This document shows positions 6,725-44,743 of a DNA stretch of 64,000 bases, one piece after another. Source of the stretch: Pontiellaceae bacterium B12219 (GTDB lineage: Bacteria > Verrucomicrobiota > Kiritimatiellia > Kiritimatiellales > Pontiellaceae); contig JARNMJ010000011.1 of the NCBI GenBank assembly GCA_029432795.1, forward strand, positions 1 to 64,000, read 5' to 3'. Positions within the stretch are counted from its first letter, which is position 1. Every line of letters begins with the position of its first letter. Below the pieces are notes generated by a model that had not been told where the DNA came from, did no database searches, and saw only the letters and a list, made by a program, of their open reading frames with translations. A program made the translations under genes and the position numbers.

Positions 6725-6739
6725 TTCCAAGCCTTGGAA
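6725..6739. repeat. Perfect iterated palindrome TTCCAAGCCTTGGAA
   Basis: One of eight perfect TTCCAAnnnTTGGAA copies in the window. This copy lies between the ABM gene and the large DUF1254 gene, and the same 15-mer recurs at 60128-60142. Confidence 0.9.
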
Positions 6740-34905: not shown

Positions 34906-35505
34906 ATGCAATCGCTGAAGCCGCTTTTTGACAACAACAAGCTCTGGGCCGATAAAATCGAACAGGAACAGCCGGGATTTTTTAAACAACTATCCAACGG
35001 GCAGGCACCGGAGTATCTGTGGATCGGCTGTGCCGACAGCCGCGTTCCGGCCAACGAAATCATTAACCTTCCTCCCGGCGATGTATTTGTGCACCGGAAT
35101 ATTGCCAACGTGGTGGTGCATACCGATCTCAACTGTCTTTCGGTCATTCAATATGCTGTGGAAGTGCTGAAGGTGAAACATATCATCGTTTGCGGCCACT
35201 ACGGCTGCGGCGGTGTTGCCGCCTCCATGGACGGCGCGAAACACGGACTGATCGACAACTGGCTGCGGCATATCGGCGATGTGTATCGGCTGCATGCCGA
35301 CGAACTCAATGCGCTCGAAGATCCTCTTGCTCGGAAAGACCGGCTCTGCGAATTGAACGTGATTGAACAGGTTTCCAACGTGTGCAATACCACAATGGTG
35401 CGCAAAGCCTGGCGTAAAGGGCAGGAGCTGCATGTGCATGGCTGGATTTACCATCTGAAAGACGGCCTGCTTCGCGACCTTGATGTAACAACCATGGGTG
35501 CATAA
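34906..35505 (+). CDS. Beta-class carbonic anhydrase
   Basis: Enzyme of 199 residues, a little shorter than E. coli Can. Zinc ligands are Cys42 (WIGCADSRVPANEI), His98 and Cys101 (HIIVCGHYGCGGV), with the Asp44-Arg46 dyad. It interconverts CO2 and bicarbonate in the cytoplasm. GGGAG lies 6-7 nt before the ATG. The thioesterase-like gene overlaps its 3-prime end by 8 bp. The close SulP transporter, a family that can carry bicarbonate, may be a functional neighbour, but it is on the other strand. Confidence 0.93.
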   Translation: MQSLKPLFDNNKLWADKIEQEQPGFFKQLSNGQAPEYLWIGCADSRVPANEIINLPPGDVFVHRNIANVVVHTDLNCLSVIQYAVEVLKVKHIIVCGHYGCGGVAASMDGAKHGLIDNWLRHIGDVYRLHADELNALEDPLARKDRLCELNVIEQVSNVCNTTMVRKAWRKGQELHVHGWIYHLKDGLLRDLDVTTMGA

Positions 35506-36418: not shown

Positions 36419-37264
36419 CTATTTAATGGTGGAACGCGTCTGCTTGACCAGGGTATTCCAAAGAACATCGGGGTCATTCGAAGCAGCGAGCAGCAGGTCC
36501 CGCGCATCTTTTTCCCGGAAGGTTTTTGAAAGGCCGGAAATCAGCTTCAGATAGAAAGCACTTCCGGCTGTTGGAATAACCATGAAGAAAAAGATGCGGG
36601 TGAGTGTACGGCCGGGTCCGCCGAAATGGATGCCTTTTTTATGAACACCAAGCGCCAGCGTCAGACCGCCGCCTTCCACTCCGCGGACGTGCGGGAAGGC
36701 CATTCCCCCGTCAACGGCGGTGGAAATAATGGCCTCGCGCTGCAGCGCCAGATCGAGCAGCTGTTCGCCGCTTTCAACGAAGCCCTTTTCCTGCAACCGA
36801 TTGCAGAGCTCGCCGAGCACCGCCTCCGGGGTATCGCCCTTGAGCGGAGTAACCATCAGATTGATGGAGGAGAAACGGGCAATACCGATTTTCTGCACCT
36901 CGCCGTAGCTGCGGCTGGCACATTCGCGGGCCACCACTTCGGACGGGATGTAGAGATAGCGCGTACAGTTCAGACACCGATGCAGCTCGTCCGCATGATG
37001 GATTTCGTTGATCAGGCTTTTGCTCACCCCCATTCCGCAACCGGTGCAATGTTCATTGACAATCGGAACAATCGCCTCGGGATGTTTGTGCAGCAGATCG
37101 TTTATATGCTTCTTAACCGGTACGGGCAGATCCTGGCTCAACAGCGAAATAGTGGCGTCGAGCGATCCCAGCGGCGCACGCGGCATCGCCGCTTTTTTCT
37201 GCATACGGGCCACGATGAGTTCCTGGAGCTGGATCATTTGATTGATGAGTTTTCGGTTGTTCAT
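36419..37264 (-). CDS. Zinc-ribbon / PTS IIA (fructose-Ntr type) fusion
   Basis: Protein of 281 residues. An N-terminal helical segment (about 1-60) leads to a C4 zinc ribbon with Cys73, Cys76, Cys97 and Cys100 (CTGCGMGVSK and HRCLNCTRYLYIP), like the zf-RING_7/CdsZ ribbon that normally ends coiled-coil proteins. Residues about 130-280 form a PTS IIA type 2 domain with phospho-acceptor His192 in GGMAFPHVRG. I know of no experimentally studied protein with this order. It ends the leftward transporter cluster, 17 bp after the SulP gene. A regulatory role, with phosphorylation state read out on transport, is inferred. Confidence 0.82.
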   Translation of the reverse strand: MNNRKLINQMIQLQELIVARMQKKAAMPRAPLGSLDATISLLSQDLPVPVKKHINDLLHKHPEAIVPIVNEHCTGCGMGVSKSLINEIHHADELHRCLNCTRYLYIPSEVVARECASRSYGEVQKIGIARFSSINLMVTPLKGDTPEAVLGELCNRLQEKGFVESGEQLLDLALQREAIISTAVDGGMAFPHVRGVEGGGLTLALGVHKKGIHFGGPGRTLTRIFFFMVIPTAGSAFYLKLISGLSKTFREKDARDLLLAASNDPDVLWNTLVKQTRSTIK

Positions 37265-37281
37265 TTTATGATCTCCTATTC

Positions 37282-38946
37282 TTACTTGTTTGATTTATCC
37301 AACAGAACCCTTGCTCTTTCGAGAGCAAGATCGATGGATTCACAAAAATTATCAGGGCCAACAATTTCAAGAAAACCGGACTTAATAAATACCTGGCGGG
37401 GTTGCGGAGCCACCCCGGAAAAAATGAGTTGCGTGCCTTCTTTCAGACACGTTTTATAAAGATCCTGAAGAACATGCAGTCCGGTGGCATCAATGGCCGG
37501 AACATGACGGATGCGCAGAATCAAAATCGGCCGGGTTTTTGCGCCGTTGCCCAATACATTCCAGAATGTGTCGACCATGCCGAAAAAGAACGGACCTTCC
37601 ACTTCGTAGACTTCGACTCCGCGCGGGACTTCACGCAGCGCAAAGGCCTGCGGATCTTCCGCCGAATCCACATCGCCGCAGACCGCATCGGTGATGACCC
37701 GAACATTGGCGATTTCCGCCATGCGCCGGATAAACAGCAAAGCCGAAAGCACAATCCCGATTTCAACCGCAACGGTGAGGTCAACCAATACCGTCAGCGC
37801 AAAGGTCAGCAGCAGAACCAGCCGGTCGCTCCGCGGCCCCTTCAGGATGGAAGCGAAGTGATGACGCTCACTCATGTTGAAAGCAACAACCACCAGAATT
37901 CCGGCCAGCGAAGCCAGCGGAATCATTTTCGCGAGCGGCGCGAAAAGGAGCAGAATCAACATCAGCACAACGGCATGAATAATTCCGGCCACCGGTGTAC
38001 GGGCACCGCTTTTAACGTTGGTTGCCGTACGGGCAATGGCCCCTGTTGCAGGAATTCCGCCAAAGAAGCCCGATGCAATATTGGCAACGCCCTGCGCAAT
38101 CAGCTCCGTATTGGGCCGGTGTTTTCCCCCGATCATACCATCAGCCACCGAGGCCGAAAGCAGCGATTCAATGGCAGCCAGCAAGGCAATGGTAAAGGCG
38201 GCCGGAACCAGTTCTTTCCAGTCCAGCGTTCCAAGGCCAGGAAGTCCGGGAGACGGCAGCATGCGCGGCAGGTCGCCAAAGCGGCTGCCGATGGTTTCGA
38301 CATCCAGATGAAAGAGCACTGCCACAGCGGTGGTGATCAGCATGGCAATAAGCATGGCAGGGGCCCGGGGGCACCAGCGCCGCGATGCAGAAATGATTAA
38401 AACGGAGCCTACGCCCAACAGGGCTGCCGAGAAAGAAACGGTTTCCAGGGATTGGAAAATGGCAGCCCATTTCGGAATGAAATCCGCCGGTACAGCTTCC
38501 ATCTGCAGACCGAGCAGATCCTTGACCTGCGTGGAAAAGATGACCACCGCAATGCCGGTGGTGAATCCGGTCGTGACCGGAAACGGAATGAAGCGAATCA
38601 GTCCGCCCAGCCGGAAGACACCGAAGAGAATCAGCAATACGCCCGCCATCAGCATACACCAGACGAGACCGCTATAGCCGAACTGCGCCAGGAGACCGGA
38701 AACGATGACGACAAAGGCGCCGGTCGGCCCGCCGATCTGCACACGGCTTCCGCCCAGCAGCGAGATCAGAAGCCCCGCAATGATGGCAGTGAAGAGCCCT
38801 CGCTCCGGCGGCAGTCCACAGGCAATGGCAAAAGCCATGGCCAACGGCAGCGCCACAATACCAACGGTGATGCCTGCAATGGCATCGGCCATAAAGGTGG
38901 CTCGATTATAGGTTCGAAGTAACGTGAACAGTTTTGGGCGAAACAT
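37282..38946 (-). CDS. SulP-family anion transporter with STAS domain
   Basis: Membrane protein of 554 residues. It has the SulP start NRATFMADAIAGITVGIVAL, the conserved GLYTA-like region GLPPERGLFTAIIAGLL with GGSRVQIGGPTGAFVVIVSG, and 11-14 hydrophobic segments. A C-terminal cytoplasmic STAS domain (about 440-545; RHVPAIDATGLHVLQDLYKT) follows. Members carry sulfate, bicarbonate or other anions. AAGGA stands before the ATG. It lies in the PTS-IIA/CBS cluster; sulfate released by sulfatases or bicarbonate are plausible cargoes. A palindrome variant (38443-38457) encodes FQSLE. Confidence 0.92.
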   Translation of the reverse strand: MFRPKLFTLLRTYNRATFMADAIAGITVGIVALPLAMAFAIACGLPPERGLFTAIIAGLLISLLGGSRVQIGGPTGAFVVIVSGLLAQFGYSGLVWCMLMAGVLLILFGVFRLGGLIRFIPFPVTTGFTTGIAVVIFSTQVKDLLGLQMEAVPADFIPKWAAIFQSLETVSFSAALLGVGSVLIISASRRWCPRAPAMLIAMLITTAVAVLFHLDVETIGSRFGDLPRMLPSPGLPGLGTLDWKELVPAAFTIALLAAIESLLSASVADGMIGGKHRPNTELIAQGVANIASGFFGGIPATGAIARTATNVKSGARTPVAGIIHAVVLMLILLLFAPLAKMIPLASLAGILVVVAFNMSERHHFASILKGPRSDRLVLLLTFALTVLVDLTVAVEIGIVLSALLFIRRMAEIANVRVITDAVCGDVDSAEDPQAFALREVPRGVEVYEVEGPFFFGMVDTFWNVLGNGAKTRPILILRIRHVPAIDATGLHVLQDLYKTCLKEGTQLIFSGVAPQPRQVFIKSGFLEIVGPDNFCESIDLALERARVLLDKSNK

Positions 38947-39031
38947 GGTGTTATCCTTGGTCTTGGAGTTCCTGACTCTTCGTCCGGGGAACCGAAAATG
39001 AGGGACCGGGGACTCAGAGCCATAAACAGTG

Positions 39032-40336
39032 TTAATTTATAAAATACCGTAAATAAATGTATGCACTGGCCACCAGCAGGCTGATGAGCATGAAGGGGAA
39101 ACCGTATTTGGTGAAGGTTCCGAATGAGATTTTGCATCCGTTTCGATTGGCAACCTGGGCAATAACCACATTCGCGGATGCGCCGACCAGTGTGCCGTTT
39201 CCTCCAAAGCAGGCTCCCAGTGCGAGCGACCACAGCAGCGGTTCTGCAATCTGTGTATGAATCAGTGATGCATCGTCGATACCCATCTGTTGCGCAAATA
39301 CCGGGATGATGCCTTTCACCAATGGAATCATGGCCATGACCAATGGGATATTATCCACAATGGCGGAAGCGATGGCGCTGAACCACAGAATCGTTAAGGC
39401 GGTCGCCATCAGGTTTCCACCGCAGATATGGAGAATCCACTCCCCCATCGATTCAAAAACATGGGCGTGTTCCAAAGCGGCAATCATCATGAACAAACCG
39501 GAAAAGAAAAGAATGGTGTTCCATTCCACATGCACCAACGAATGGTGAATGTCTTTTTTACACACCAATACCATCAGCATCGCCCCCGCCAATGCAATAA
39601 TGCCCGGCTCAATGTTCAGCAGGCGGCCGCCGAAAAATCCGGCAAGAATGAGGCCGAACACCACGAGTGATTTTTTGAGAACGACGGGCTGCAGAATGGC
39701 TTTTTCCGGACGCGACTGTTCCACGCGCTTGCGGGTCTGTTCGGTGGTCCGAATATTTTTCCGGAACATCAGCACCATCAGACCAAGCAGCAGGATCATG
39801 GCAATCAGAACCGGCGGAGTCAGATTGAGCAGGAAGTCGTTGAATGAAAGATGCGTCTGAGAGCCAATCAGAATATTGGGCGGGTCACCGACCAGTGTCG
39901 CCGTTCCGCCGATATTGGAAAAGATGGCTTCCATAATCAGGATCGGTGCGGCCGGCATGTCGAGCAGCTGGCAGAGCAGGATCGTGATCGGAGCCATGAG
40001 AATGACGGTTGTCACATTGTCAAGGAAGGCCGACAGCACTGCGGTCAGAAGCATAAAAAACACAACGATCAGCATGCCGTTGCCTTTGGCCAGGCGCGCC
40101 AATTTGATGGCCAGCCATTCAAAGACTCCGGTATCGGTGAGCGTGTTCACGACCACCATCATGCCGATGAGCAGGAACAGTACGTTCATATCGATGGCAT
40201 GAAGCGCTTCTTCATAGCCCACCAGATGCAGCCCGATCATCAGGCCGGCACCGATCAGCGCGGCGATGGTTTTATCGACCAGCTCCGTCGCAATGAAAAA
40301 ATAGACCACCAGAAAAACAACGATGGGAAATAACAT
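39032..40336 (-). CDS. ArsB/NhaD-type (ion transporter superfamily) permease
   Basis: Membrane protein of 434 residues with about 11 segments. The family motifs are LSAFLDNVTTVILMAPITIL, NIGGTATLVGDPPNILIGSQ and, in the second half, GACFGGNGTLVGASANVVIA with an ASAIVDNIPLVMAM motif. This is the ArsB/NhaD/P-protein group, which exchanges sodium for protons or exports anions; exact cargo cannot be read. The repeated NxTxxGxxxN halves fit an inverted-repeat carrier. It is flanked by the IIA-CBS gene (17 bp) and the SulP gene, all leftward. Confidence 0.88.
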   Translation of the reverse strand: MLFPIVVFLVVYFFIATELVDKTIAALIGAGLMIGLHLVGYEEALHAIDMNVLFLLIGMMVVVNTLTDTGVFEWLAIKLARLAKGNGMLIVVFFMLLTAVLSAFLDNVTTVILMAPITILLCQLLDMPAAPILIMEAIFSNIGGTATLVGDPPNILIGSQTHLSFNDFLLNLTPPVLIAMILLLGLMVLMFRKNIRTTEQTRKRVEQSRPEKAILQPVVLKKSLVVFGLILAGFFGGRLLNIEPGIIALAGAMLMVLVCKKDIHHSLVHVEWNTILFFSGLFMMIAALEHAHVFESMGEWILHICGGNLMATALTILWFSAIASAIVDNIPLVMAMIPLVKGIIPVFAQQMGIDDASLIHTQIAEPLLWSLALGACFGGNGTLVGASANVVIAQVANRNGCKISFGTFTKYGFPFMLISLLVASAYIYLRYFIN

Positions 40337-40353
40337 GGTTCGGGTCCTCGGTT

Positions 40354-41271
40354 TTAGTAATTGATCACGTTGTCGAGCACGAGGCTCTTATCGATGGTTC
40401 CGACCCAATGGCCGTCTTCATCGGTGACATAAAGTTTGGAATAGGACTTAATAGCCAGGTCGAACACGATTTCCATGATGGTGTAATCCAGCGGCACAGT
40501 ATGCGCATTCAGTTCCATCATTTCACCGGCAAGAACGGTGCTCTCATCTTCGAAATATTTTTCGAACGGATCAAATTCGGCAATGAATGAAACACTCTTC
40601 AATTGCGAAAAGAAGTCGGGCAGTCCGTAGCGGAAAAGGCGTTCAACGGTGATTTCCCCCAGTATTCTGCGGGATTCATTCACCACCGGCACGGCGACCA
40701 GACGGTTTACGCTCATTAAATGCGAGCAGGCTGAAACCGGATCCGTATCCAATACGCTGAATGTGGGCGGGCGCATGATATCGCGGGCAATCAGCGGCTT
40801 CTCGATATTCGGATTATGGGCCTTGAAAATTCCGCGCAATTCCGCACCGTTCTCGGCCCGCAGGACCTGCTCATGCACTTCGACTTTGCTCAACAACCTC
40901 GAAAACTGCGCCATAAGTTTCAGCGATAAGGAGGGATCGGCCGTCGGGACAAGAATCAGGCAGATAATCTGCACGGGAGTCTCTTCGAACAGGACCGGCT
41001 CTTTAAAGGTTGCGACGGCAAAGAATGCCTTGCTCAAATGCTCCAGGCGGGCATGCGGAAATGCGACTCCATTTTCCATGGCCGTGGTTTGGCGCGCCTC
41101 CCGGTCGATCAGTGCCTGAAGAATGGATGCATGCGAGAGCTCGGGGTTCACGGTGTAAAATTCGCCGGAACAGAGTTCCTGAAGTATGGCCTCAAATGCG
41201 GCATCGCGCGAAGAGCATGTCAGCTCGGGAAGCCACGATTCTACGCGGCGGGAATAGTTCATAATGTTCAT
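40354..41271 (-). CDS. PTS IIA / CBS-pair fusion
   Basis: Protein of 305 residues. Residues about 15-155 are a PTS IIA type 2 domain with phospho-acceptor His73 in GVAFPHARLEHL. From about 165 a CBS pair follows (IARDIMRPPTFSVLDTDPVS; LDYTIMEIVFDLAIKSYSKL), which in other proteins binds adenosine nucleotides. It could join phosphotransfer state and energy charge. GGAG is placed 9 nt before the ATG at 41271. It sits between another CBS protein gene and the ArsB/NhaD-type permease gene, the likely target. Confidence 0.85.
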   Translation of the reverse strand: MNIMNYSRRVESWLPELTCSSRDAAFEAILQELCSGEFYTVNPELSHASILQALIDREARQTTAMENGVAFPHARLEHLSKAFFAVATFKEPVLFEETPVQIICLILVPTADPSLSLKLMAQFSRLLSKVEVHEQVLRAENGAELRGIFKAHNPNIEKPLIARDIMRPPTFSVLDTDPVSACSHLMSVNRLVAVPVVNESRRILGEITVERLFRYGLPDFFSQLKSVSFIAEFDPFEKYFEDESTVLAGEMMELNAHTVPLDYTIMEIVFDLAIKSYSKLYVTDEDGHWVGTIDKSLVLDNVINY

Positions 41272-41285
41272 AGTTGCGTCTCCTG

Positions 41286-41753
41286 TTACAACGCCATTTC
41301 GACTTTAGCACTCAGGTAGTGCCCAAGAATGTGTTTTGCTTCAAGCGTACCGACCAGACAGCCGGCTTCATCCACCACCGGAATTTCACGAATGCTGTTT
41401 TGCTCCATCAACTCCAATACCCGCCTGAGACTTGTTGATGCCTGCACCGCTACCGGTGCTTCGGCCAGATCGTTGCCGGTATGGAAATTGAGTACATAGG
41501 CCTTGGTGGGCAGCATTTCCTCTTCGTCTGATTTCCGACCTGTCAGCTCCAGAATTTTCCGGGCAATCTGTTTGGCCTGAATGACTCCGACCAATCTTCC
41601 GGCTTCATCTTCGAGGTAGATTTTATAGTGATCGGACGAGCAGATTTTTTCGGCCAGCGTTTCGAGCGAAAGACCGATATCCGCACGCAGACACGAGGTT
41701 TGAATAAGGTACGAAAGATCCTTAACAGTGGTTTTTTCCTGATTGGCTTTCAT
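41286..41753 (-). CDS. CBS-pair protein
   Basis: Protein of 155 residues made almost entirely of one CBS pair: SDHYKIYLEDEAGRLVGVIQ with AKQIARKILE, then LRRVLELMEQNSIREIPVVD with GCLVGTLEAKHILGHYL. Such free-standing modules bind AMP/ATP or SAM and gate channels or transporters. It lies 14 bp upstream of the IIA-CBS gene in the leftward cluster. No DNA-binding part is present. Confidence 0.88.
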   Translation of the reverse strand: MKANQEKTTVKDLSYLIQTSCLRADIGLSLETLAEKICSSDHYKIYLEDEAGRLVGVIQAKQIARKILELTGRKSDEEEMLPTKAYVLNFHTGNDLAEAPVAVQASTSLRRVLELMEQNSIREIPVVDEAGCLVGTLEAKHILGHYLSAKVEMAL

Positions 41754-41868
41754 GGGTTTGCGTCCTTGAATTTGAATCGTTTAAAATAATGCAACTCCCG
41801 ATCCGGGTACGGGATTACGCTGCTGTTGCACGAAGGCAAACAGCAGGAAGTGACTCATTCTTTTCGGA

Positions 41869-42186
41869 CTAAATCCGTAAGGGCATCATCCAGCCCATCG
41901 CCTGAACGGGCAGCTCAAAGGCGTGCAGCGCGGCGGGTTCCAGTGTTTGGAACTCCATCGGCATAATACACAGCAGCGAAGCGGTCTGCAGACCGCCGAA
42001 AGACAGCTTATTCTCTTCCGTCTCACGCGGCGTGTCCAATCGCTGGAAACTGAATTCAGCTTTTTCGGAGCCCCGGGTGATCTGAATTTCCCGATCAGCG
42101 CAGGGCGACAGCGGGGTGCAGTAAACCAGCAGCTCCAGCAAAAGCGGGATCAGAAAGGCAAAACAGACTGTACGGATTTTCAACAT
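41869..42186 (-). CDS. Small secreted or membrane-anchored protein of unknown function
   Basis: Protein of 105 residues with a hydrophobic N-terminus (VCFAFLIPLLLELLVYCTPL) that may be a signal, anchor or lipoprotein signal (LVYC). The rest is polar with no recognised domain. Two palindrome variants fall inside: 41938-41952 (FQTLE) and, more weakly, 42034-42048 (FQRLD). It lies 8 bp after the antiporter gene, so it is co-transcribed, and 115 bp before the CBS gene. Confidence 0.6.
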   Translation of the reverse strand: MLKIRTVCFAFLIPLLLELLVYCTPLSPCADREIQITRGSEKAEFSFQRLDTPRETEENKLSFGGLQTASLLCIMPMEFQTLEPAALHAFELPVQAMGWMMPLRI

Positions 42187-42194
42187 ACAACGAC

Positions 42195-43865
42195 TCAGGC
42201 AACACTCTTCCGTTTAACCAATTCAGCATTCACTTTGCGGCGTGCGGCACGTACATCCAACACCCCGACCAATTTACCGCCATCAAGCGTTTCAACCACC
42301 GGCAGTGCTTCCACCTGGTTGTTATTCATTTCGTGCAGGGCTTCAGCCAGATTCATGGCGGAGGCAAGCCGATGGCGTAACGGCTGCATCACATCGCCGA
42401 CCACCAGCCATTGCCAGGTGTCGCGATCGGTCAGCAACTCTTTGAGCATTTCAAACGTCAGCACACCGATAATTTTCCCTTCGTTGGAAACGACGGGATA
42501 AACAAAGGTATCCTGAGTGGCAAAACGCTGCACAACAGTTTCAAGCGGCGTGCCTTCTTCCAACGGAACAAAATGGTCGTCCACAACATCGAGCACCTTC
42601 AGCTCGGCCATGATGTCTTCTTCTGTGACATTGCGTCCGATTTCGCCCGCTTTCGTAATGGCCAGTTTTGCAAAGGCCGGTCCGATCAGCTGAACACACA
42701 GGGTGGTCGCGGTGACCGTGAAAATGATCATATCGCCGAGGCTTATACCTTCGATGATCTGAATATGCTGCAGGTGCTGGCTCGCCACAATCGAAAGACC
42801 GACCGCCACTCCGCCCTGAGCAAAGATGGCCATGCCCAGATAATTTTTTACAGACTTATCGGCTTTGGAAATCCGCCCGCCCCAATACGCCCCGACCCAC
42901 TTGCCGAGACTGCGCATCAGGACATAAGCCGCAACCAAACCCCATACCCATGCCGGCATGTTATCGAGCGAAAGGCGCGCACCAACGAGCACAAAGAAAA
43001 TGATATAAATCGGAGTCGAAAACGACCGGACGATCTCGAACAGCTTTTTAGAGCGGTTGGGTGCCCGGTTAATCAGCACAATCCCCACCGCCATCGTCGC
43101 CAGAATCAGATCCATCTCGAACGCAACCGCCAGACCGATACAGAGCAGCAGCACACCGATCGACATGCCCAGCCGCTTTTCGTTCTGCGGCAGATATTTC
43201 ATCATGGCATCCAGTGCAAATCCGCAGGCAACCCCCAGCACAATCGCTCCGCCCAGCTCAACAAAGGTGTGCATCAGTGTTTTGAAAATTGAATCGCCAC
43301 CACCGTTCACCAGAATATCGGCCACACTGGTCCCCAACCCGTACAGGGTCATCGCCAATGCATCATCCAGTGCCACAATGGCCACAATCGCGGTCGTAAG
43401 CACGCCGGCCGAACGGTATTCCCAGAGCACATCAATCGTGGAGGCCGGGTCGGTGGCCGATGCAATCGCCCCGAACACAACGCCCGCAGCAATTGAAATA
43501 ATCCAGTCATTGCAGACCGTATAAAGAATCAAAGTGCTGCTGATTCCCACCAGAAGAAAGGCCACAACGCCTTCTCCGATCAGGATGGCTGTAAACTGTT
43601 TCCCGTATTTTTTAAAAATGCTGCCACTCAGCTCTCCGCCGACCAGAAAACCGATCAGGCCCAGTGCAAAGTTATTAAACGGTCGCAAGGCCTCAATATC
43701 GACCGGATGAAGCAGTCCAAACCCGGTATCGCCAATCAGCACGCCGATGACGATATACCCAACCACCTGCGGCACATTGAGCTTTTGAAAAATAAAAGCT
43801 CCGATGATGCCGCCGGCTACACAGATGCCGAGAAGGGCGAGTACTCCGAGTTCAATTTCAGGCAT
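42195..43865 (-). CDS. CPA-type cation/proton antiporter with CBS pair
   Basis: Membrane protein of 556 residues. Twelve or so segments include FQKLNVPQVVGYIVIGVLIG, the ion-binding region FGAIASATDPASTIDVLWEY followed by IVALDDALAMTLYGL, and FSTPIYIIFFVLVGARLSLD, as in monovalent cation/proton antiporters. The C-terminal 150 residues are a CBS pair (TPLETVVQRFATQDTFVYPV; DVMQPLRHRLASAMNLAEAL), unusual in place of the RCK/TrkA-N domain common in this superfamily. Its gene begins 4 bp after the HTH-IIA gene, so their expression is tied. Confidence 0.9.
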   Translation of the reverse strand: MPEIELGVLALLGICVAGGIIGAFIFQKLNVPQVVGYIVIGVLIGDTGFGLLHPVDIEALRPFNNFALGLIGFLVGGELSGSIFKKYGKQFTAILIGEGVVAFLLVGISSTLILYTVCNDWIISIAAGVVFGAIASATDPASTIDVLWEYRSAGVLTTAIVAIVALDDALAMTLYGLGTSVADILVNGGGDSIFKTLMHTFVELGGAIVLGVACGFALDAMMKYLPQNEKRLGMSIGVLLLCIGLAVAFEMDLILATMAVGIVLINRAPNRSKKLFEIVRSFSTPIYIIFFVLVGARLSLDNMPAWVWGLVAAYVLMRSLGKWVGAYWGGRISKADKSVKNYLGMAIFAQGGVAVGLSIVASQHLQHIQIIEGISLGDMIIFTVTATTLCVQLIGPAFAKLAITKAGEIGRNVTEEDIMAELKVLDVVDDHFVPLEEGTPLETVVQRFATQDTFVYPVVSNEGKIIGVLTFEMLKELLTDRDTWQWLVVGDVMQPLRHRLASAMNLAEALHEMNNNQVEALPVVETLDGGKLVGVLDVRAARRKVNAELVKRKSVA

Positions 43866-43869
43866 TGAA

Positions 43870-44511
43870 TTAATCCGTAATCAGCTGAGCGTGAATGAAG
43901 GCGGGATCATCAGACTCGATAATCGATTTACGAACGTCGGCATCTTTTAAACGGCTGCTGACCGCCGATAGAGTTCGAATGTATTTGGCATGCTGATCGG
44001 AACGGGCAGCCAGCATGCAGACAATCTGCACCGGCTGATTATCGAGCGAAGAATAACCCGTAATCGGTTCCTTGCAAATTGCCACGGCCATCACCAGATC
44101 CGAAACTGAACTGATGCGCACATGCGGCACACCAACACCGAAACCGATGCCGGTACTCATTAATTCTTCGCGGGCGAAAATGCCTTTCAACAGTTCATCG
44201 CGGTCATGAACAAAAGGCGATTCTGCCAGAAGATCCACCAGATTGCGTAAAATCGTATCCTTATCGGCCGATTCCATAATAATGACGCGCTCCGCCGTCA
44301 GGGTTGCACTGCTCGTTACACCGGAAGGCTTTGCAGCAGCCTGTTTCGAAAGACGCGTGTTCACCCAGTTTTCAACATCGTTGCGCTTGAAGCGCCAGGT
44401 GGTCCCCAGCTTACCGCCCGGCAGATCGCCCTTCTGTGCCCAGTCATAGACCGTACGCTCAGAAACGCGCAGGTATGCAGCCACTTCCTCAATCGTCATA
44501 ATTTCGTGCAT
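43870..44511 (-). CDS. Excisionase-type HTH / PTS IIA fusion regulator
   Basis: Protein of 213 residues. The N-terminal 60 residues are an excisionase/MerR-like helix-turn-helix (IMTIEEVAAYLRVSERTVYD, then GDLPGGKLGTTWRFKRNDVE). A PTS IIA type 2 domain with His130 in GFGVGVPHVRI follows. The start at 44511 has AGGAG 9 nt upstream; the in-frame ATG at 44520 is flush with that site. It is the first gene of the eight-gene leftward cluster and could control it, with phosphorylation of His130 altering DNA binding. A palindrome variant (TTCCAATGTCTGGAA) lies 67 bp upstream at 44578-44592. Confidence 0.85.
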   Translation of the reverse strand: MHEIMTIEEVAAYLRVSERTVYDWAQKGDLPGGKLGTTWRFKRNDVENWVNTRLSKQAAAKPSGVTSSATLTAERVIIMESADKDTILRNLVDLLAESPFVHDRDELLKGIFAREELMSTGIGFGVGVPHVRISSVSDLVMAVAICKEPITGYSSLDNQPVQIVCMLAARSDQHAKYIRTLSAVSSRLKDADVRKSIIESDDPAFIHAQLITD

Positions 44512-44743
44512 ATTCGACATCTCCTGTAAAGATGTGCGAAAAACTACATCAAACCGCAGAATATGCAACATAAAGTTTTCCAATGTCTGGAAACCGGGCA
44601 AAACAACATAATAAAATCAGCGTGCACTCAGGAGATCATCCATCATTCAGACTTATCACTTCTTCTTGTTATACCAAAAAACTCCGCTACTATGTTATAG
44701 ATCTGCAAACGGCAGCGGAAGCGCAGCATAAGGGGGCAACACA

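Follow-up and report, generated by a model that had tools for sequence, protein, structure and literature searches.

Most knowledge of the nitrogen phosphotransferase system (PTS-Ntr) comes from Proteobacteria, in which a single PtsN protein serves many targets. In Escherichia coli, the CPA1 antiporter YcgO is inhibited when unphosphorylated PtsN binds to its cytoplasmic tail, an interaction that becomes weaker once PtsN is phosphorylated (PMC11808508). Control of a transporter through a IIA domain is also described for LacS, in which HPr phosphorylates the IIA domain fused to the transporter (PMC10710835). Here we describe a cluster of eight minus-strand genes, spanning positions 36419-44511, in which three IIA proteins (HTH-IIA, IIA-CBS and Zn-IIA) lie among a cation/proton antiporter carrying a CBS pair (CPA-CBS), a CitMHS/ArsB/NhaD-type permease and a SulP transporter. 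The window, that is the whole stretch of 64,000 nucleotides analysed, comes from Pontiellaceae bacterium B12219 (contig JARNMJ010000011.1; genome G000, 4.75 Mb, 96% complete); Pontiellaceae belong to the Kiritimatiellales, within the Planctomycetes-Verrucomicrobia-Chlamydiae (PVC) group. We propose that this putative operon places ion transporters under a PTS-Ntr-like relay ending in dedicated gating IIA proteins, a reading to which we assign a probability of roughly 0.6.

The locus resembles PTS-Ntr (PtsP-PtsO-PtsN) in its GAF-domain enzyme I (GAF-EI), its HPr-type carriers, its PtsN-like IIA domains, its link to ion transport and in that no sugar channel was found (PMC13104625). In contrast to the one free PtsN of that system, several dedicated IIA domains are here fused to a helix-turn-helix (HTH) domain, a CBS pair or a zinc ribbon, and are paired with transporters. 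As in PtsN-YcgO (PMC11808508), a PtsN-type IIA may act on a CPA antiporter whose regulatory tail is cytoplasmic, but this tail is here a CBS pair, and the IIA belongs to a fusion protein encoded next to the antiporter. As in LacS with its EIIA-Glc-like domain (PMC10710835), a secondary transporter would be controlled via a IIA domain, although the domain is of the PtsN/fructose type, is usually a separate protein and accompanies ion, not sugar, transporters.

The eight leftward genes all lie at the positions and on the strand that an earlier sequence-only reading had given them. Profile searches with Pfam and NCBIfam support their domains, the small 105-amino-acid (aa) protein matching no family. 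Since the gaps between them measure 4-115 bases, the genes likely form one operon. PTS_EIIA_2 matched in three of the proteins (E = 1.8e-28, 1.4e-22 and 1.1e-17, Pfam), and the acceptor histidines picked beforehand, H130 in HTH-IIA, H73 in IIA-CBS and H192 in Zn-IIA, proved exact. Specifically, the acceptor His and an Arg 16 residues upstream of it are invariant in 14 HTH-IIA, 21 IIA-CBS and 18 Zn-IIA aligned sequences, and R57, E58, H73 and R75 are present in 74 of 74 IIA-CBS homologs from several phyla. By both sequence and fold, the nearest relative of all three domains is IIA-Ntr (PtsN). The AlphaFold model of IIA-CBS (predicted local distance difference test, pLDDT, 87) combines a IIA-Ntr fold with a normal CBS-pair fold; the low-confidence Zn-IIA model (pLDDT 68) was used for fold identity alone. 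A nearly invariant DPFEKYF segment of IIA-CBS, located in the one poorly structured part of its model (residues 226-240), may be its contact with the transporter.

Solved PtsN proteins have a second active-site His. In its place, HTH-IIA and Zn-IIA carry Tyr, and IIA-CBS carries Ser, Ala, Ile or other residues, never His. By eye, this position is still His in three other proteins of the same genome, namely a stand-alone PtsN-like protein, a CPA antiporter-IIA fusion and an amino-acid-permease-IIA fusion. In sugar IIAs, the second His participates in transfer to enzyme IIB (EIIB; reviewed in PMC13104625). Because it is replaced in the three cluster families, their members are more likely to be end-point regulators.

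As the sequence-only reading had noted, none of the eight genes encodes EI, HPr, IIB or IIC. The search for donors that it had advised revealed two EI (one of them the GAF-EI), three HPr and an HPr kinase elsewhere in the genome. On contig C66, the genes for HPr kinase, one HPr and one EI are consecutive, the GAF-EI and the two further HPr being located elsewhere; EI is present in 57 of 58 relatives. Eleven IIA-type matches were found in the genome, ten of them exceeding the Pfam cut-off, and PTS_EIIC and PTS_IIB had no match there, under conditions in which control genomes were matched; other types of EIIB and enzyme IIC (EIIC) were not searched. Because the donors exist while PTS_EIIC and PTS_IIB are unmatched, the PTS of this genome appears to be regulatory. 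Its parts are those of a PTS-Ntr-type system, with a GAF-EI, an HPr-type carrier, IIA domains bearing the acceptor His and its partner Arg and, as far as PTS_EIIC and PTS_IIB are concerned, no EIIB/EIIC partner; the second His and the PTS_IIB/PTS_EIIC partners that go with a sugar PTS IIA are missing.

Orthologs of IIA-CBS with 54-79% identity occur in Pontiellaceae and in other Kiritimatiellales/Kiritimatiellae, including Pontiella sulfatireligans F21. A survey of genomes for the gene set, also advised beforehand, showed that the order HTH-IIA, CPA-CBS, stand-alone CBS pair, IIA-CBS, permease is common to the window and 12 relatives, and that SulP and Zn-IIA are additionally present in the window and in six of those 12. 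CPA-CBS comes immediately after HTH-IIA in 13 relatives, and the permease is the next gene after IIA-CBS in 78 of 79 loci (77 counted by script, plus L186, where the scripted match was wrong), with a median gap of about 22 bases. These loci include Kiritimatiellota, Verrucomicrobia, Lentisphaerae, Planctomycetota, Hydrogenedentota, Omnitrophota, Zixibacteria, Coatesbacteria and others; the search patterns were derived from this protein family and are uninformative on other kinds of IIA-CBS proteins. The cultured P. sulfatireligans F21 and Victivallis vadensis DSM 14823 both carry the pair. The order shared by 12 relatives and the near-constant pairing therefore place the arrangement beyond chance, and the cluster is modular: HTH-IIA goes with CPA-CBS, IIA-CBS with the permease and Zn-IIA with SulP. 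Of the two outcomes that the sequence-only reading had regarded as damaging, a neighbourhood without conservation, or a genome without EI and HPr together with IIA domains that cannot be phosphorylated, neither was observed.

In P. sulfatireligans (L089/L090) and in a Kiritimatiellales metagenome-assembled genome (L092/L093), SulP is absent, and a second HTH-IIA and a Hyf/Ehr-like block come after the permease instead. The block encodes Proton_antipo_M, NuoH-, NuoD- and NuoB/NuoI-like proteins, with hydrogenase-4 and complex-I models as best matches, and its large subunit scores far better against NuoD-type models than against hydrogenases; it therefore looks hydrogenase-related (Ehr-like), rather than a hydrogenase. 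Zn-IIA follows the block in both relatives, on a separate contig in the metagenome-assembled genome. The IIA-CBS-permease pair adjoins a similar block in Omnitrophota, Auribacterota and UBP3 genomes. Such blocks were seen at L089:4543-14622 (P. sulfatireligans), L092/L093, L138, L164, L167, L172 and L177, several with their own HTH-IIA.

Following the gating logic of PtsN-YcgO, we propose that the same logic operates here with dedicated IIA proteins. Phosphate from phosphoenolpyruvate (PEP) would pass to EI (the hprK-linked EI and/or the GAF-EI), to HPr and to the His of the IIA domains, and the state of each IIA would set binding and inhibition, or release, of its own transporter. The CitMHS-type permease would be the target of IIA-CBS, and SulP that of Zn-IIA, which in the two relatives above would instead act on the Hyf/Ehr-like complex; HTH-IIA, encoded just ahead of the CPA antiporter, would bind to 44535-44558 and tie operon transcription to the same signal. 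As an outcome, ion and pH balance would be tuned to PEP/pyruvate and perhaps to nitrogen status. In this scheme we infer phosphotransfer, direct binding, the sign of control and the substrates. A regulatory, PtsN-like role is supported because neither the acceptor His nor its Arg varies, the donors are present, and both gene order and regulator-transporter pairing are conserved; further support comes from the additional IIA proteins that this genome encodes fused to, or beside, transporters, and from the unique conserved element at 44535-44558. This is the part of the earlier interpretation that finds support, PtsN-like use of IIA on ion transporters; the nucleotide and metal or redox sensing attached to it does not, as detailed below.

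Four points weigh against the gating proposal. The three IIA domains score 57.3, 43.8 and 28.1 bits against the PtsN equivalog TIGR01419, whose cut-off is 138.7. The antiporter consists of Na_H_Exchanger and a CBS pair, with no RCK/CorC match in Pfam, whereas in YcgO it is an RCK/CorC tail that PtsN binds. The set is incomplete in relatives without SulP or Zn-IIA. Finally, gene neighbourhood indicates functional linkage, which does not establish direct gating.

Sodium, protons and anions are predicted as substrates from family membership alone. The permease passes the Pfam CitMHS and ArsB cut-offs and stays below every named NCBIfam cut-off, including those for MamN (187 of 500 bits), ArsB (120 of 457) and NhaD (53 of 577). 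SulP, above the NCBIfam sulP cut-off, shares the SulP-STAS fold with DauA and BicA, yet lies under both named cut-offs: DauA, its best named match, gives 507 bits against 614, and BicA 258.5 against 880. In an alignment, it has Glu260 and Arg306 at two positions of the BicA sodium site, which are Asp258 and Gly304 in BicA. The score and the two differing positions weaken the case for a sodium-coupled BicA, and the protein is closer to DauA than to BicA. Bicarbonate stays a possible substrate because a beta-carbonic anhydrase is conserved beside the cluster in six relatives; it lies near the cluster in a seventh.

The strongest competing explanation is that control is mainly transcriptional, with HTH-IIA as a phosphorylation-tuned operon regulator and the other IIAs integrating signals without contacting transporters. 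Ahead of HTH-IIA lies a 24-bp element, TGCGGTTTGATGTAGTTTTTCGCA, which is 92% conserved across 12 genomes, compared to 48.5% for the 100 bases upstream of it, and which, with up to 3 mismatches allowed, occurs just once in the genome. The two ends of the element make a short inverted repeat (TGCG...CGCA), and promoter-like boxes overlap with it: a TTGCAT box, whose TTGC is kept in the 12 aligned genomes, lies 16 bases ahead of TAGTTT inside the element. A sigma-70 consensus and terminator scan did not detect this putative TTGCAT-TAGTTT promoter, and in the more distant relatives L095 and L102 the upstream arrangement differs. On the simplest reading the element would be a local autoregulatory site, its single occurrence having led us to reject it as one of many sites. 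Such a unique element fits transcriptional control, as does the finding that other genomes have an HTH-IIA ahead of the Hyf/Ehr-like block as well. However, IIA-CBS and Zn-IIA have no DNA-binding domain, and across phyla IIA-CBS keeps its place next to the permease, in examined stretches that mostly lack HTH-IIA, so that we consider mainly transcriptional control unlikely.

It is still less probable that the IIA domains are no longer phosphorylated and serve as plain protein- or ligand-binding regulators. The loss of the second active-site His and the scores under the PtsN cut-offs would be in line with this, but the R-E pair and acceptor His do not vary in the 74 IIA-CBS homologs, nor does the acceptor His in any HTH-IIA or Zn-IIA sequence, and both EI in nearly all relatives and HPr in this genome have been kept.

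Slightly more doubtful again is a scheme led by a second messenger, in which cyclic di-AMP (c-di-AMP) or adenine nucleotides on the CBS pairs would set transport, with the PTS as a side input and a IIA-diadenylate cyclase as the link. The genome does encode a IIA-DacZ_P-DAC protein, and the fold of the IIA-CBS model matches the c-di-AMP-binding CBS pairs of OpuCA and DarB. However, the ribose-binding Asp of the adenosyl-binding motif G-x-x-T/S-x-x-D is missing, by eye, from all cluster CBS domains (GEITVERL, GTIDKSLV, GVLTFEML, GVLDVRAA, GVIQAKQI and GTLEAKHI), so that nucleotide sensing, which the sequence-only reading attributed to them, finds no support in the residues of this canonical motif, although the fold fits. 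Moreover, IIA-diadenylate cyclase occurs in 4 of 58 genomes (full-length relatives in G001, G024 and G027 only), which rejects it as a general partner of the cluster, found in many more. As for the possibility that the genes form a chance or lineage-specific group and share no control, the absence of SulP, Zn-IIA or the small gene in some relatives is outweighed by an order conserved across genera and orders, the invariant active sites and the 78/79 pairing, and the idea is hardly credible.

The zinc ribbon had been taken for a metal or redox sensor. Its four Cys are invariant in 18 Zn-IIA sequences and it matches the ribbons of CT398 (Chlamydia) and HP0958 (Helicobacter), in the ribbon region only, Zn-IIA adding a fused IIA domain; the Cys residues are therefore probably structural, holding zinc. 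CT398 and HP0958 are linked to sigma-54 binding, and a PTS-sigma-54 link via this ribbon is an idea that might be entertained. Two sigma-54 genes are present in the genome (G000:C111:50377-50853 and G000:C229:6319-6786). Zn-IIA was rejected as an invention specific to the cluster, a paralog being found in nearly all 58 genomes. In G053:C1, mostly truncated Zn-IIA copies recur every 11,510 bases or so close to the two ends of the contig (4391, 15900, 27411, 3064018, 3075529 and 3087040), either a tandem amplification or an assembly artefact.

Table 1. Features of the cluster and its surroundings in the window.
Feature	Position	Strand	Basis
HTH-IIA, 213 aa; MerR/excisionase-type HTH_17 and PTS IIA domain, acceptor H130	43870..44511	-	Pfam HTH_17, PTS_EIIA_2; 14 orthologs
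CPA-type cation/proton antiporter, C-terminal CBS pair	42195..43865	-	Pfam Na_H_Exchanger 3e-36, CBS
Small protein, 105 aa, secreted-looking N-terminus	41869..42186	-	no Pfam/NCBIfam family
Stand-alone CBS pair, 155 aa	41286..41753	-	Pfam CBS; position conserved
IIA-CBS, 305 aa; acceptor H73, DPFEKYF segment	40354..41271	-	Pfam; AlphaFold model
CitMHS/ArsB/NhaD-type permease	39032..40336	-	Pfam CitMHS 2e-91
SulP anion transporter with STAS domain	37282..38946	-	Pfam Sulfate_transp, STAS
Zn-ribbon-IIA, 281 aa; acceptor H192, Cys 73/76/97/100	36419..37264	-	Pfam incl. Zn_ribbon_9
24-bp promoter/operator-like element TGCGGTTTGATGTAGTTTTTCGCA ahead of HTH-IIA	44535..44558	-	conservation; single genome copy
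TTGCAT box, possible -35	44563..44568	-	TTGC conserved; putative promoter role
Beta-carbonic anhydrase, converging neighbour	34906..35505	+	Pfam Pro_CA

HTH-IIA starts at ATG 44511, relatives sharing MHEIMTIEEV preceded by a purine-rich stretch; a longer TTG frame is not kept in them. The palindrome at 44578-44592 was rejected as an operator, its motif being abundant across the window: TTCCA-N4-TTGGAA-type palindromes are strongly over-represented, occurring 116 times with up to 2 mismatches allowed where 25 would be expected (for example at 6725, 25488, 27245, 27396, 33308, 35560, 44578, 60128 and 62284). Relatives of the small 105-aa protein, at 37-44% identity, occur in two genomes; many others have a gap of about its size, and two lack it altogether. 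The protein is a fast-evolving, optional part of the cluster.

Elsewhere in the genome, a PtsN-like IIA adjoins a CPA antiporter, and a Zn-IIA paralog and the IIA-diadenylate cyclase lie near transhydrogenase-like genes. The CPA antiporter-IIA fusion (L019:7254-9062) and the amino-acid-permease-IIA fusion (L017:8709-10565) are candidates for direct phosphorylation of a transporter. The fusion of IIA, DacZ_P sensor and DAC (448 aa, L017:10728-12074 in G000:C228, minus strand) is possibly a PTS-controlled c-di-AMP synthase. Two IIA paralogs (413 aa, L020:9304-10983, and 430 aa, L021:8357-10022) lie beside Rnk/GreA-like genes, the second being followed by apparent phosphate-uptake (pst) genes.

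The sequence-only reading had called the combination undescribed. We found no description of it in the searchable literature, a search outside which most subscription papers fall; the principle, by contrast, has precedents in PtsN-YcgO, in LacS-IIA and in the HTH-IIA proteins of chlamydiae. Parts and principle are thus known; new, within that literature, are the layout in which each ion transporter has a dedicated IIA regulator, the occurrence of this layout in several phyla and its use where no sugar PTS was matched.

In conclusion, these data suggest that a phosphorelay of sugar uptake has been reused for ion and proton balance. More tentatively, and at somewhat less than even odds, in the PVC group and neighbouring phyla the PTS may have turned into an ion-transport control in which each transporter or redox pump has its own phosphorylatable IIA, supplied by EI and HPr; the flux of sodium, protons and anions would thereby respond to PEP/pyruvate and nitrogen status via transporter gating and an autoregulated operon. 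This control would span Omnitrophota, Hydrogenedentota, Zixibacteria and others, with the antiporter, the CitMHS-type permease, SulP, the Hyf/Ehr-like complex and the amino-acid permease as partners. Gene order seems to reveal the IIA targets, each IIA having a transporter of its own as partner, in cultured species too, and the effect of a regulatory PTS on ion transport is therefore directly testable.

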